DNA from: Phycisphaerae bacterium
GTDB lineage: Bacteria; Planctomycetota; Phycisphaerae; SM23-33
Assembly (NCBI GenBank): GCA_018335035.1
Contig: JAGXKT010000021.1
Coordinates: 3,118-39,686, forward strand
DNA length: 36,569 bases
Direction of reading: 5' to 3'
Made by a program: the position numbers and the translations under genes. Position 1 is the first letter of the stretch. The number at the start of each line of letters is the position of its first letter. The notes under the pieces are model-generated. The model was not told where the DNA came from. It saw only the letters and a list, made by a program, of their open reading frames with translations, and did no database searches. Positions 29,056 through 35,731 of the stretch are shown here, piece by piece.

Positions 29056-29565
29056 TCATTCCATTCCGCCGCCGGAGCCCGTATCCGCCCGGCGGGGCAT
29101 TTCGGATGTGGTCGCCGCGGCGAGTCGATCCGCCGCGTCGTAAAGCATCTCGCCATAAGTCGCCAGGCCCGCGTCGACACGTGTATTCCATTGGTCCGCA
29201 GGCCAAATCTCGATGTGATCCCGCATGCCCACCAGCGTCACCCTCTCGGCGATGTCCGCCCGACCAGCGGACCGTTCCGGAATCACGATGCGCCCCTGGC
29301 CGTCCGGCTTGACCAGCCGCGCCATCGCAAACAGCAGGTCGATCTTGCGCTGCTCGCGACTCGGCAGCGGCGAACGTCGCATCGTCGCCATCAACCGACG
29401 GTAATAGGCATCCGGATACAGCCACAGGTGTCGCTCCGGTCCCAAGATCAGAATGAAGTTCGTGCCGTCTTCGTCCGGTTCGATCGACTCGCGAAGCCCG
29501 GAGCTGATCGCCAGGCGCCGCTTGCCATCTATCGTCTGCTCGAACTCTCCGACAAAGAACGCCAT
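29056..29565 (-). CDS. mraZ: Transcriptional regulator MraZ
   Basis: MraZ is the dcw-cluster regulator, a ring-forming DNA-binding protein with two swapped-hairpin AbrB-like domains. The 169-residue product shows both signatures: FVGEFEQTIDGKRRLAISSGLRE in the first half and LVKPDGQGRIVIPERSAGRA in the second. The last 20 residues are extra compared with the usual ~145. It is the first gene of the cluster; GGGAG and GAGG lie before the ATG. Repeats of a GGGA motif every ten bases upstream (29590-29624) look like its own operator, which would imply autoregulation. Confidence 0.94.
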   Translation of the reverse strand: MAFFVGEFEQTIDGKRRLAISSGLRESIEPDEDGTNFILILGPERHLWLYPDAYYRRLMATMRRSPLPSREQRKIDLLFAMARLVKPDGQGRIVIPERSAGRADIAERVTLVGMRDHIEIWPADQWNTRVDAGLATYGEMLYDAADRLAAATTSEMPRRADTGSGGGME

Positions 29566-29633: not shown

Positions 29634-29899
29634 GAAAAAAATGCCGCTTCCTCACATCGCGTCGAAGGCACGGATTGCCATACAAATCGCAAACTCATCA
29701 CCGTATCGCGCCGCCCGAGGTCTGTAGCCACGACATCTTGGGGCCACGTTCGGGGAAACTTTTTTCGGATCCAAGAAGACGGCGGCTAAACAGCGCCGTC
29801 GCGGCGATCCGGCATGCTCATCGCGCCACAGCGCACCACTATCCAATCGTCCATCTCACGCCGACGCGATAAGGGAAACTGAGGGTTTCGTCGCGCCCC

Positions 29900-29953
29900 G
29901 TTGACTCGCCTGCCGCGGCGTAGTCGTCGTCTGACGAAGCCGGGTTGATTCGT
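29900..29953. repeat. Inverted copy of the 14707-14760 repeat
   Basis: These 54 bases match the reverse complement of 14707-14760 with four differences, all transitions. Both copies begin GTTGACTCGC when read in the same sense and include CGTCGTCTGACGAAGCCGGG. The copy lies in the non-coding gap upstream of mraZ. Confidence 0.8.
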
Positions 29954-30193
29954 GAACTCGTAGCGCGTCTGTCGGTCGATGGGTAACGAAACGCGCCAGC
30001 GCCTGACACGCGAGACTCAAGTGACCGATTGGGCGATCGACCCACTGACCCTTCGACGAAACGAGCCATATGACCACAGCCCGTAAGGCCGCCGGCAAAA
30101 ACGTCAAGCGACTCCTTCCGCCGGCACGGGGCACACAACGCCGCGTCTCGGCCCTGCATCCCGGCAGAACGCAACGGTCGACCGTGAGAACGG

Positions 30194-31773: not shown

Positions 31774-32898
31774 CTACCGTCGGAGTATCTCGGCGGCAAC
31801 CTGCTGATAGAGGCACTCGTGGGCTTGGACGTGGGAGTCGATGTCACACTGCTGCGTGACGTATTGCCGTCCGGCCTGTCCGAGACGGCGGCGCAAATCG
31901 GCGTCGCCGCCAAGGCGCTCGATCGCCTCGGCCAGGGCGACCACGTCAGCCGGCTCGACCAGCAGGCCCGTCTGTTCCGGCTCGACCAGTTCGGACAATC
32001 CCGGCACGTCCGTCGCGACGACGGGCAAGCCCGCTGCCATCGCCTCGGCCAGCGCCAACCCGACGCCCTCCCAGCGGCTCGGCATGGCGAACACGTCGGC
32101 CGCACTGAGAATCGATCCCACGTCGCGACGGAAGTCCACCCACCGGCAGTGCCCGCCGCCCTCTCCATGGGCCACGAACGTGCGGACCATCTCGCGTTGC
32201 GGGCCGTCACCGACAATCACCAGGCGGCACGGGTTTCCGCGTGCGGCGAGATGACTCATCGCCGCCAGAAGCGTGTCCACGCCGCGCTGGCGCTCGAGTC
32301 GCCCGACATAGGCGACCAGCAGCGCGTTGTCTTCTACGTTCCATTCGGCGCGAAGCCGGCGGCGGGCCTGCTCGTCACGCACGTACGCCGCGGCCTCGAT
32401 GCCGTTGGGGATGACCGTATACCGCCACGGGGGAAGCCCGCTCCGCTCCGCGTGCCACCGCCGAACCGACTCGGACACGCAGATCAGCCGGTCGCACCCC
32501 GCCGCCAGAAGACGCGTGAAGGCCAGGCGCCATGGGCGGAACCGTCCCTCGGCCATGTGAAGCGTGTGCACCAGGTGCGGCACGGCCGCCAGCGAGCGTG
32601 CGGGGCGCCCGGCCAGGTCGGCGTGAAACAAGTGCGTATGCAACAGATCGATCCGCTCGCGCCGCAGCAACTCCACGAGCCGCGGCAGGCGCAGCACGTC
32701 CCATGTGCAGCGGACGTCGAGCGCTTTGACGGGAACGCCGTCGTCGGCGAGCCAGTCCGCCACAGGCCCGCCGCGGAGCGCCACCACACGCACGTCAAAG
32801 CGCCGGCGGTCCAGTCGCCGGGCCAGTTCGTAGACACATCGCTCTGCCCCACCCGGCACCAACTCCGTAATCAATTGGCAAACGCGCAATCGACGCAT
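31774..32898 (-). CDS. Family 4 glycosyltransferase
   Basis: The 374-residue GT-B enzyme resembles GT4 glycosyltransferases that add sugars from nucleotide donors to lipid or polysaccharide acceptors. The N-terminal domain starts VCQLITELVPGGAERCVYELA, with the glycine-rich acceptor loop, and contains LLHTHLFHADLAGR and ICVSESVRRWH. The C-terminal donor domain has VIPNGIE, AYVGRLERQRGVDTLL, LVIVGDGPQREM, and the E-x7-E motif in SRWEGVGLALAEAMAAGLPVVATDV. The ATG at 32898 fits the family. It is on the same strand as the sulfatase gene but ends 113 bp before it, and the sulfatase has its own promoter. The acceptor cannot be deduced. Confidence 0.92.
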   Translation of the reverse strand: MRRLRVCQLITELVPGGAERCVYELARRLDRRRFDVRVVALRGGPVADWLADDGVPVKALDVRCTWDVLRLPRLVELLRRERIDLLHTHLFHADLAGRPARSLAAVPHLVHTLHMAEGRFRPWRLAFTRLLAAGCDRLICVSESVRRWHAERSGLPPWRYTVIPNGIEAAAYVRDEQARRRLRAEWNVEDNALLVAYVGRLERQRGVDTLLAAMSHLAARGNPCRLVIVGDGPQREMVRTFVAHGEGGGHCRWVDFRRDVGSILSAADVFAMPSRWEGVGLALAEAMAAGLPVVATDVPGLSELVEPEQTGLLVEPADVVALAEAIERLGGDADLRRRLGQAGRQYVTQQCDIDSHVQAHECLYQQVAAEILRR

Positions 32899-33260
32899 TC
32901 AATGCCCGCTTCTGACCAGATGAGACCATCATAAAGGTCCCGACGCCGCCTGCAAGCCCCGGGCATACGTCTGCGCCGACCACAGGCAATCGCCCCCGAC
33001 GCAATGGTGCGCACGAACGCGGCGCCAAAGGGGAATTATCTGACCTTGGGCGGCGTGTGTGCGTGCGGCCCCTCCCACCTGCCGGCAGCGCGCGGCGCCG
33101 GCAGGGCCCAGCGCCGCAACGCGCGCCCCGGCCGTCACTTGAGCCCACGCCCGCAGGCCGGTGCGCACACAATGCTGCGCAGCAGTCGCGCCGGCCCGCA
33201 CAAATGTTCCACGTGGAACAATCGCATTTGTCGGCGCCGACGCGCTCCCGGCGCGCCGGG
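32899..33260. other. Non-coding region holding a parS-like site
   Basis: This 362-bp gap between the glycosyltransferase and VIT/vWA genes has no convincing gene. Frames on both strands are Ala/Arg/Gly-rich with no family resemblance. Its only clear element is the perfect palindrome at 33205-33220. A GC-rich stretch near 33078-33105 can fold on itself (TGCCGG and CCGGCA) but has no T-tract. Confidence 0.6.
33205..33220. promoter_or_regulatory. parS: Candidate parS centromere site
   Basis: TGTTCCACGTGGAACA is a perfect 16-bp palindrome. It differs by one base from the Bacillus subtilis parS consensus and matches the form described in pseudomonads. It is the site bound by ParB to segregate the chromosome origin. 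The site lies in a non-coding gap and is flanked by CAAATG and CATTTG in inverted orientation at 33201-33206 and 33225-33230. No parA, parB or dnaA gene is in the window. Confidence 0.7.
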
Positions 33261-35573
33261 TCAGCGAATGCGATACGCCTGCCCGCGCAGAACGATCAGC
33301 AGTTCCTCGTCATCGCGCTGATCGGCGAGGATCTGATTCTCCGCGGCCGAGTTCTCGCGGACCAACTCGAAGTAGTCGTCGGAGTACCGCTCGACGTCCT
33401 CGATCTTCTCGGCGTCTTCGTCCGGGTCGAGGTGCGCGGCGTTGGCGACGACCCAAAGCTTGCCGCGGCGATACGCCGCCTGCTCGGCATACTGACGGAC
33501 GCCCTCGGCGCGCTTGGCGGATTTCTCTTCGGCCTCGGCGGCGTCCTCGTATGCCTCACCATCACTGTGTCCGATCATCGTCCCGGCCGGGGCGCCGCCG
33601 GGCTCGCCGGTCGCCGCGGGCGCTTCGGAGGGCGCGACGCGATCGGCCTGGTTGAGCTTCTGGCGATTCGTCGCGTGCATCTGTCCGGCTCGGCCGGTGG
33701 TTTCCTCTGTTAGCGACTCCGTCGCGCGAAGCCCCCTCGTGCGCAATTCATCGCGCCGGCTCAGTTCGGTACCCTCGTCGGCCAGGAAGCTCGTGTACGG
33801 CGTCATGATCCCGTGGGCCATGCTCAGCCGGACGATCTCGTCGACGACCTCCTCGCTCTTTCCGTGGAGCTGAATCTGATCGAGCAGGTATCCGATCCGC
33901 CGCGCCGCCCAGAGCTTCTCGACGAAGGCGTAGCGGATGTCCCGCCCCGCCGCGCGCAGCGTCACGCCGTACTCGAAGCCGCGCCGCTTGCCGCGGTACA
34001 TGCCGGTGACCACGAGTTGGGTCGCCATCACGCCGCGTTCGCGCGTCGGCAGCTTGCGGGCATCCTCGGCGTCGTACCGCCCGGCCATGAGTATCTGGTC
34101 GCCGTCGAACAAGTCGCCGAGCTCGCGTGGGTAGGTCTGGCGGAGCGTCACGCCGTCGATCTCCACGGCCAGGTCCGTCATCACCGGGTTCTTGATCTTG
34201 TTGTACAGCGACGTGACCTTCTCGTCGATCGGCTCGCTGGGGCGGGCGTAGTCGCTGCGTCCGCCGTTGCCCGCCGCGAGCGTGTCCAGCAGGCGGACGT
34301 TCGGCTTGTAGCCCACGCCGAACGCGAACAGCCGCGCGCCGCGCGCGTTGGCCTTGTGCGTCGCGGCGAGGATGTCCTTCTCGTTCGTCTTGCCGACGGT
34401 CGGTTTTCCGTCGGTCAGGAACAGCACATAGGCCGGGCGGCCATCACCGTCGTCGCCCAGCGCCCCCATCGCCGCCTGCAGCGCGGCGTGGATGTCCGTC
34501 GCGCCGCTCGCGTCGACGGCGTCGATCTTGTCGGTCGCGGTGGCGATCGCGCCCGCCTCGGCCGGGACGAGCCCGTCGGTCAGCGGCGTGACGCTGTCGT
34601 TGTAGGCGAGCACGCAGAAGCGATCGTCCACGTTGAGGTTCCGGATCACGCGCGTCGCGGCGCGCTTGGCCTGGGTGATCTTGTCGTCCGTGCGCATCGA
34701 GCCGCTGTGGTCCAGCACGACGGCGAGGTCCTTGGCGACGGGCTTGCCCTCGTCGCGCGGGTTCGGGCCGACCAGCAGCAGGAAGTACCCGTCCTCGTCC
34801 GCGACCGGCTGATGCGAAATCAGCGTCGCGCCGACGGCCTCGTTGGCGGCCTTGTAGAACACCTGGAAGTCCGTCACCGGAAGCGTCTTCGTCGCCGCGT
34901 AGCGCGCCAGCACGTGGCGCGGACCCTGGCGCGTCACGTCCAGGTCGTGCGTCGGCGAGTAGACGGCCGTGATGTCCGCCGCCGACATGATGTCCACCGC
35001 AACCTTGACCGACTCGATCGGACGCGACGAGAACTTCTCCGTGTTCAGCGGGTACCACACCTCGACGCGGTCGCGGTCCTTGTCGCAGACGTCCTTGTAG
35101 GTCACCAGCACCTTGACCGGCTTGCCCGGCTCCAGCGGAAACGCGCTGGTCTTGTACAGACCGGCCCCGGCATACTCCAGCAGCGCCGGGTCCTTCAGCC
35201 GCCGGACCGTGTTCTCGTAGATCTCGCGGGCCTTGTCGGCCTCGAGCAGGCGCGCGGCGTACTCCTTGCCGTCGACCCGAAGCGTCATCGCGTCGATCGC
35301 CGCGTGCGGCGGCACGGGGAAGTAGTACTCCACCTCCATCGCGCGCTTGGACGTGTTGACGAACGCCTGGTCGATGCTGACCGAGGCGACCTGGTCACGC
35401 ACGCGGATATCCACGTGGTGATACTTCACCGCCCACGAGCCGCGGAACGGAATCGGTCGCGACTCGGGGCGCGCCTCTTCGACCGGGACGACGAAGCCGT
35501 CGCCCGCGGCCGGTGCGGCGAGCAGAACGATCCAGACCAAACCGACAATGCGTTTGCGTTGCGTGCGTCTCAT
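33261..35573 (-). CDS. Secreted VIT and von Willebrand factor A domain protein
   Basis: The 770-residue protein starts with a signal peptide (about 1-24, IVGLVWIVLLAAPAAG), then a VIT domain (about 45-165, with VDIRVRDQVASVSIDQAFVN and MEVEYYFPVPPHAAI), then a vWA domain whose metal-adhesion (MIDAS) motif D288-H-S290-G-S292 is intact, with later FLTDGKPTVG. The C-terminal 200 residues are charged and rich in Ala and Glu, and end in a basic segment. VIT-vWA proteins are related to inter-alpha-trypsin inhibitor heavy chains and bind ligands through a metal ion. GAGAGGAG seven bases before the ATG fixes the start. It is adjacent to no MoxR gene, so a link to the MoxR at 8102-9115 is not supported. 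Confidence 0.9.
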   Translation of the reverse strand: MRRTQRKRIVGLVWIVLLAAPAAGDGFVVPVEEARPESRPIPFRGSWAVKYHHVDIRVRDQVASVSIDQAFVNTSKRAMEVEYYFPVPPHAAIDAMTLRVDGKEYAARLLEADKAREIYENTVRRLKDPALLEYAGAGLYKTSAFPLEPGKPVKVLVTYKDVCDKDRDRVEVWYPLNTEKFSSRPIESVKVAVDIMSAADITAVYSPTHDLDVTRQGPRHVLARYAATKTLPVTDFQVFYKAANEAVGATLISHQPVADEDGYFLLLVGPNPRDEGKPVAKDLAVVLDHSGSMRTDDKITQAKRAATRVIRNLNVDDRFCVLAYNDSVTPLTDGLVPAEAGAIATATDKIDAVDASGATDIHAALQAAMGALGDDGDGRPAYVLFLTDGKPTVGKTNEKDILAATHKANARGARLFAFGVGYKPNVRLLDTLAAGNGGRSDYARPSEPIDEKVTSLYNKIKNPVMTDLAVEIDGVTLRQTYPRELGDLFDGDQILMAGRYDAEDARKLPTRERGVMATQLVVTGMYRGKRRGFEYGVTLRAAGRDIRYAFVEKLWAARRIGYLLDQIQLHGKSEEVVDEIVRLSMAHGIMTPYTSFLADEGTELSRRDELRTRGLRATESLTEETTGRAGQMHATNRQKLNQADRVAPSEAPAATGEPGGAPAGTMIGHSDGEAYEDAAEAEEKSAKRAEGVRQYAEQAAYRRGKLWVVANAAHLDPDEDAEKIEDVERYSDDYFELVRENSAAENQILADQRDDEELLIVLRGQAYRIR

Positions 35574-35621
35574 GGCGTCGCTCCTCTCGGCGGCGCGATC
35601 CCGGCCGCCTGCACCCCCTTC

Positions 35622-35646
35622 GACGCTCGCGGGCCCCCGAAGTTCC
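35622..35646 (-). promoter_or_regulatory. Possible ECF-sigma-type promoter of the VIT/vWA gene
   Basis: On the minus strand GGAAC (35642-35646) and CGTC (35622-35625) are 16 bases apart, the common ECF sigma pattern, about 50 bases before the VIT/vWA start. No sigma-70-like pair is seen. Short motifs in GC-rich DNA can arise by chance. Confidence 0.35.
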
Positions 35647-35703
35647 CGACGACTCGCGTCCGCCGGACGGGCGCCGACGCGGCCGCGCGACACGTTTCTG
35701 CGC

Positions 35704-35731
35704 AAAAAAACGCCGCCTCGAAAGGCGGCGT
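35704..35731 (-). terminator. Rho-independent terminator of the cold-shock gene
   Basis: On the minus strand a perfect 9-bp stem, ACGCCGCCT and AGGCGGCGT with a TTCG tetraloop (35710-35731), is followed by a run of seven T residues. It lies 24 bp after the cold-shock stop codon and separates it from the VIT/vWA gene. Confidence 0.93.

Follow-up and report, generated by a model that had tools for sequence, protein, structure and literature searches.

A predicted parS site of a Phycisphaerae bacterium and its multiple copies with partly shared flanks

The perfect 16-bp palindrome TGTTCCACGTGGAACA at 33205-33220 of the window (i.e. the whole stretch of 36,569 nucleotides analysed here) is very probably a genuine chromosomal parS and the predicted docking site for the ParB protein of the same genome. 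The window belongs to contig C9 of genome G000 (the study genome, a draft of 2.74 Mb in 82 contigs), and the palindrome corresponds to the unstranded position G000:C9:36322-36337. With 12 exact copies, the parS number of this genome is raised in a lineage-specific manner. The explanation that we regard as probable combines a genuine parS serving a single ParB, copying of short parS-bearing units, loading of ParB clamps, and a broad origin domain. The extra parS copies would have arisen, at least partly, by copying of an intergenic unit (ca. 65-170 bp) rather than through independent point mutations. Each copy would load ParB-CTP clamps, as at the copies next to parB, and these would slide into nearby DNA and widen the region on which ParA and SMC act; the copies would most likely occupy a broad origin domain. 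Loading of ParB-CTP clamps at parS and their sliding into neighbouring DNA are established for ParB generally, according to PMC7333895. One genome with 12 sites, compared with 34 relatives having at most three, and with flanks shared among some of the copies, offers a testable route to parS multiplication.

The palindrome and its surroundings

As originally predicted, the perfect parS-like palindrome is present in a 362-bp intergenic gap (32899-33260, unstranded). The gap is bordered by a gene for a VIT and VWA domain protein (33261-35705, minus strand, 814 aa, TTG start as listed), with its stop 40 bp from parS, and by a gene for a GT4-type glycosyltransferase (31774-32898, minus strand, 374 aa), with its start 306 bp from parS. 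The context outside the parS unit includes mraZ (29056-29565, minus strand), 3.6 kb from parS, at the start of the dcw (division/cell-wall) cluster, in which mraW, a LysM protein gene, and ftsI-like and murE-like genes follow. Another dispersed intergenic repeat, devoid of parS, was observed at 29898-29961 of the window (54-64 bp, 87-89% identity), and is also present on contig C4 (locus L016, 3364-3426, 3551-3612 and 7648-7700).

Chromosomal parS sites of ParABS systems are mainly TGTTNCACGTGAAACA, as given in PMC7022226. The palindrome TGTTCCACGTGGAACA differs from this form by one mismatch, and has the same letters as the copies proximal to parB. Allowing up to three mismatches to TGTTNCACGTGAAACA, four rows were obtained in the window (two sites, each on both strands) against 0.26 expected, and none of 100 shuffles of the window attained four rows. 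From base composition, the expected number of exact TGTTCCACGTGGAACA matches was ca. 3e-6 in the window and ca. 2e-4 in the genome. The improbability by chance claimed for the motif was borne out by the 12 exact genome copies, with zero matches in the reversed control.

An outer CAAATG/CATTTG pair had been claimed as well. Both words exist (33201-33206 and 33225-33230), but they are asymmetric about the palindrome, CAAATG overlapping it by two bases and CATTTG being four bases away, and they are absent from the flanks of the other copies. Being off-centre and without recurrence beside other parS copies, the pair was dropped as a feature and looks incidental. Rfam yielded no match for 32700-33500, and positions 32850-33300 contained no consensus resembling a promoter or terminator. 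Folded as single-stranded DNA, the parS site was only mildly better than shuffles (z -1.9), with 8 out of 200 shuffles equally good.

ParB and the identity of the site

The sole gene with a ParB N-terminal domain in the study genome (one PF02195 match) was located at C17:3190-4284. The encoded protein exceeded the cut-offs for ParB_N, HTH_ParB and ParB_C, its best structural matches were solved ParB and Spo0J structures (best E-value 1.5e-46), and its N-terminus retains the stretch LGRGLSSLI, which we take to be of the ParA-contact type. The lack of a ParB homologue, which would have spoken against the original prediction, was therefore not observed.

The region of ca. 900 bp between asnB and parB on contig C17 contains three exact and one 1-mismatch copy of the parS 16-mer, the nearest being 20 bp before the parB start. 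The order asnB-parS-parB was retained in all six of the closest loci. When up to one mismatch from TGTTYCACGTGRAACA was accepted as parS-like, 56 of the 62 named parB loci examined, out of 80 fetched, had such a site no more than 1.5 kb upstream of the gene; the 18 left out were mostly from Bacteroidales. The palindrome is tied to ParB because the same 16-mer is found upstream of the only parB and this arrangement recurs in relatives. The site accordingly combines three of the features by which a chromosomal parS was to be recognised: a 16-bp palindrome fitting the consensus, a canonical ParB in the genome, and a parB-linked motif conserved in relatives.

The parB gene on C17 stands without parA, and the best match to a ParA-type ATPase was found elsewhere (C2:44296-44817). 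In genome G107, a parB-like gene beside three parS copies (C16:87175-87448) was split over two frames, due to either a sequencing error or a broken gene.

Dispersed sites of this kind could alternatively be used in the manner of Noc, i.e. mainly for nucleoid occlusion or division control, with ParB replacing Noc. Such use would fit the presence of copies on nine contigs, the distance of 3.6 kb from mraZ, and the best NCBIfam score of ParB, which was for the Noc model and below cut-off (184.9 vs 315 bits). According to PMC7333895, the Noc-binding site differs from parS by two bases. We nevertheless hold a Noc-like role to be very improbable, as the sequence has the parS form and not that of the Noc-binding site (compared by eye), and the N-terminus of ParB bears LGRGLSSLI with no amphipathic helix obvious by eye.

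Number and location of parS copies

A genome-wide count of the motif, as suggested with the original prediction, gave 12 exact copies on nine contigs, more than in relatives; three further copies had one mismatch. The copies were found on C1, C4, C9, C18, C38, C82, C7 (one exact, two variant), C17 (three exact, one variant) and C44 (two). All of the exact copies were intergenic according to gene calls made at the fetched loci with a simple frame-composition script, with the start codons after the C1, C38 and C82 copies picked by eye; the intergenic share of the same fetched DNA was ca. 15% (14.6 of 94.4 kb).

This intergenic location, upstream of genes in several cases (ilvD, thrS, GH2) and in the window possibly targeting the GT4 gene, would also suit an operator of a different regulator that equals parS by chance and controls the adjoining genes. 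That reading appears scarcely credible, however, considering that relatives, too, have this 16-mer linked to parB, that the window site is 306 bp from the nearest start with no promoter-like site found, and that the neighbouring genes lack a common theme.

Among the relatives of the same family, three copies at most were detected in all 34 genomes searched, also with one mismatch allowed; the family draw lists no genome of the same genus. In the class draw, 143 of 397 genomes (the study genome included) had the exact 16-mer, which is one form of parS, so that genomes with other parS spellings score zero. The highest counts were in G055 (82), the study genome (12), G046 (11), G068 (8), G107 and G278 (7 each), and G208 and G255 (6 each). 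Genome G046, with its 11 exact sites, gave no strong canonical ParB match (best 41 bits) in a draft called 96% complete, which is most simply explained by a contig missing from the draft.

Of the 34 genomes searched in the family draw (the study genome included), 28 had relatives of the VIT/VWA gene. Within ca. 1.5 kb of these relatives, no parS with up to two mismatches was found in the 11 loci fetched from other genomes of the family, for which reason the window parS looks gained in the lineage of the study genome. The GT4 neighbour was not kept in orthologous form at those loci, where two weak matches (21-26%) to other glycosyltransferases were seen.

Shared flanks and the partner motif

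In BLAST comparisons among the loci of the study genome, matches extended past the 16-mer. The C1 and C38 copies aligned over ca. 170 bp, with 80% identity over 116 bp, and are followed by unrelated genes, i.e. an MmeI-type methylase and a member of glycoside hydrolase family 2, respectively. The C7 and C82 copies aligned over ca. 200 bp at lower identity, and the C17 copies upstream of parB had little flank in common with the others. After masking of the core plus 4 bp to either side, and with each arm compared on its own, 62 flank pairs had a mean score of 11.28, compared with 10.11 (sd 0.22) in 200 dinucleotide shuffles; pairs scoring at least 13 numbered 11, against 10 at most in any of the shuffles. 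Removal of C1/C38 left the mean at 11.04, still above the largest shuffle mean of 10.70. The site flanks were also more alike than 66 control intergenic stretches (13.1 vs 9.5), in a comparison that permits bridging over the core and in which the controls hold a repeat family of their own (one control pair scoring 32.3). Flank 12-mers were shared between contigs at 4 of 12 sites, and at none of the controls.

A partner motif, GCGCACACAATGCTGCGCAG, is situated at 33163-33182 of the window (plus strand), 22 bp from parS. It forms with this 22-bp spacer and parS an approximate shared unit (33155-33230, plus strand), the extent of which was estimated visually by aligning it with the C82, C7, C1 and C38 copies. 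The arrangement GCGCAC-N8-GCGCAG occurs 22-34 bp from parS at five copies (C1, C7, C9, C38 and C82), among unrelated neighbouring genes. Its pattern GCGCACNSNNTKYYGCGCAG had five exact matches in the whole 2.74 Mb genome, all five beside parS; as the pattern was derived from these five copies, the informative part is that the genome has no other exact match. The one-mismatch matches were four, none of them beside parS, which equals the control level (two forward and two reverse).

At four of the nine contigs (C4, C17, C18 and C44) the full partner motif was missing and TGCGCA alone was found nearby. In the window, the partner motif overlaps two TGCGCA words that could pair into a small hairpin. 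This word, which was chosen after looking at the data, had 11 occurrences in 2,540 nt of parS flanks against 11 in 12,052 nt of the remaining intergenic DNA at those loci, a 4.8-fold higher density, and lay at most 50 bp from a parS copy on eight of the nine contigs (all except C7). Sharing of sequence outside the functional core, one of the marks of a dispersed intergenic repeat, was observed as the partner motif at five places and as flank similarity above 200 shuffles.

The strongest competing explanation is an ordinary multi-site parS produced by repeated point mutation under selection for ParB loading, in which the likeness of flanks would come from GC-rich composition and extended recognition. 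Core neighbours are alike in unrelated genomes (often A/T, then GC-rich), as would fit a wider recognition sequence; repeats such as the high-scoring control pair occur between control intergenic stretches too; and the genomes G068 and G107 have reached 7-8 sites without shared flanks. This explanation is nonetheless considered unlikely, because the masked flank similarity exceeded all 200 dinucleotide shuffles, the C1/C38 alignment runs for ca. 170 bp before unrelated genes, and the exact partner motif is confined to parS neighbourhoods. Copying of a parS-bearing unit remains our preferred reading for part of the copies.

An open reading frame on C18 (L018 290-1576), 3.3 kb from a parS copy, combines a start resembling a REP-associated tyrosine transposase with an IS30-like end. 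Its transposase match was below the family cut-off (54.7 vs 80 bits), and the REP-type transposase-like stretch is only a lead to a copying mechanism.

Flanks in other genomes

In G055, 46 of the 82 exact sites (21 loci) were examined, and 36 of these 46 shared a flank 20-mer with a site on another contig (controls 0/46); the result was alike with 14-mers (36/46). In most of the copies examined, the G055 sites (loci L122-L141 and L182) were inside dispersed hairpin-bearing repeats, often ca. 100 bp apart. The G055 draft comprises 4.7 Mb in 720 contigs, and has three genes with ParB domains. Flank 12-mers common between contigs were detected at three of seven sites in G278 and at two of the eight sites examined (out of 11) in G046, with controls at zero. 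No flank 12-mer was shared between contigs in G068 (0/8 sites) or G107 (0/7), where the controls were likewise zero, and these two genomes led us to reject copying as the general explanation for a high parS count. Since flank sharing varies by genome and is nil in G068 and G107, copying accounts for part of the parS expansions but not for all.

Tentatively, and with more doubt than confidence, these counts may be taken further: the Phycisphaerae centromere could act as a mobile repeat, in which parS and a hairpin-like partner would be copied as a unit up to dozens of times (82 in G055), so that ParB-loading sites might extend over a third or more of the chromosome and not form one origin-proximal cluster.

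Chromosomal position

The original prediction would place the site near the replication origin, or in a ParB-loaded domain far from it. Its identification as parS agrees with the same 16-mer at the sole parB and the like arrangement in relatives, but nearness to the origin does not follow, as a single copy cannot by itself locate the origin when there are 12 exact copies on nine contigs. As a lower bound in this unordered draft, the nine parS contigs need to span only 277 kb (10%). GC skew was negative in 32 of the 35 two-kb bins of the window, without a lasting switch, and therefore gave no sign of an origin or terminus inside the window.

Two dnaA genes were identified in the study genome (C63:1339-2580 and C59:171056-172327), both above the DnaA family cut-off, and no parS copies were found on these contigs. 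At least two matches to the DnaA model were also obtained in nine out of nine other class genomes searched. BLAST gave no end-to-end joins among the fetched contigs of the study genome, and synteny around parB in relatives was limited to asnB-parB, with no parS contig linked to a dnaA contig. One gene on the dnaA contig C63 is similar (29-38% identity over ca. 280 residues) to a gene found close to asnB in three relatives; the latter was rejected as a link owing to the wrong orientation for adjacency.

In all five class genomes with both genes on one contig (G160, G180, G200, G239 and G361), parB was located 51-154 kb from the higher-scoring dnaA, each genome also having a second dnaA-like gene. 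On the basis of these distances, a broad origin domain is the most likely location of the copies. Such placement is also the default expectation, since two species are reported in PMC7333895 to tolerate extra parS sites only within ca. 600 kb around their native site or the origin. In G068, one parS is 2.5 kb from dnaA, and the stretch needed to hold all eight sites is at least 1.03 Mb out of ca. 3.0 Mb (34%) if the assembly is right, exceeding the 20% origin domain quoted in PMC7022226.

Comparison with known systems

Among the literature matches listed, no paper was found on parS in Planctomycetes; nor was a paper found joining parS sites, ParB and repetitive extragenic elements. The drivers of variation in parS number, multiplication and clustering are stated as open in the review PMC7333895. 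The same review quotes 20-23 parS near the origin in Streptomyces coelicolor and Listeria innocua as high, and the 82 sites of G055 are several times that number, which bears on the tolerance of a chromosome for ParB-loading sites. Many parS in one genome are a feature common to these two species and the genomes described here. Unlike their origin-near sites, those of G068 span at least 1.03 Mb, and most of the examined exact sites of G055 are in dispersed repeats.

The likeness to Noc-binding sites consists in dispersed sites for a protein of the ParB family, whereas the sequence differs and the ParB keeps an N-terminus that resembles the ParA-contact type.

Repeats of the REP/BIME type are dispersed, short, intergenic, palindromic and present in several copies. 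The parS copies of the study genome are likewise short, intergenic, palindromic and multicopy, and a REP-transposase-like fragment is on C18 together with one of them. They differ from REP/BIME in that the C18 match is below cut-off and has an IS30-like end, with no demonstrated link to the parS copies.

The likeness to the parS of ParABS systems consists in a 16-bp palindrome, a genome-encoded ParB, copies located upstream of the parB gene, intergenic location, and more than one copy. In contrast to the usual ParABS arrangement, parA is not next to parB (its best candidate being on C2), the copy number is raised in this lineage only, and five copies share the partner motif and flanks. Taken singly, the window site is very probably a parS of known kind; what is new is a multiplied parS of which some copies have flanks and a partner motif in common.
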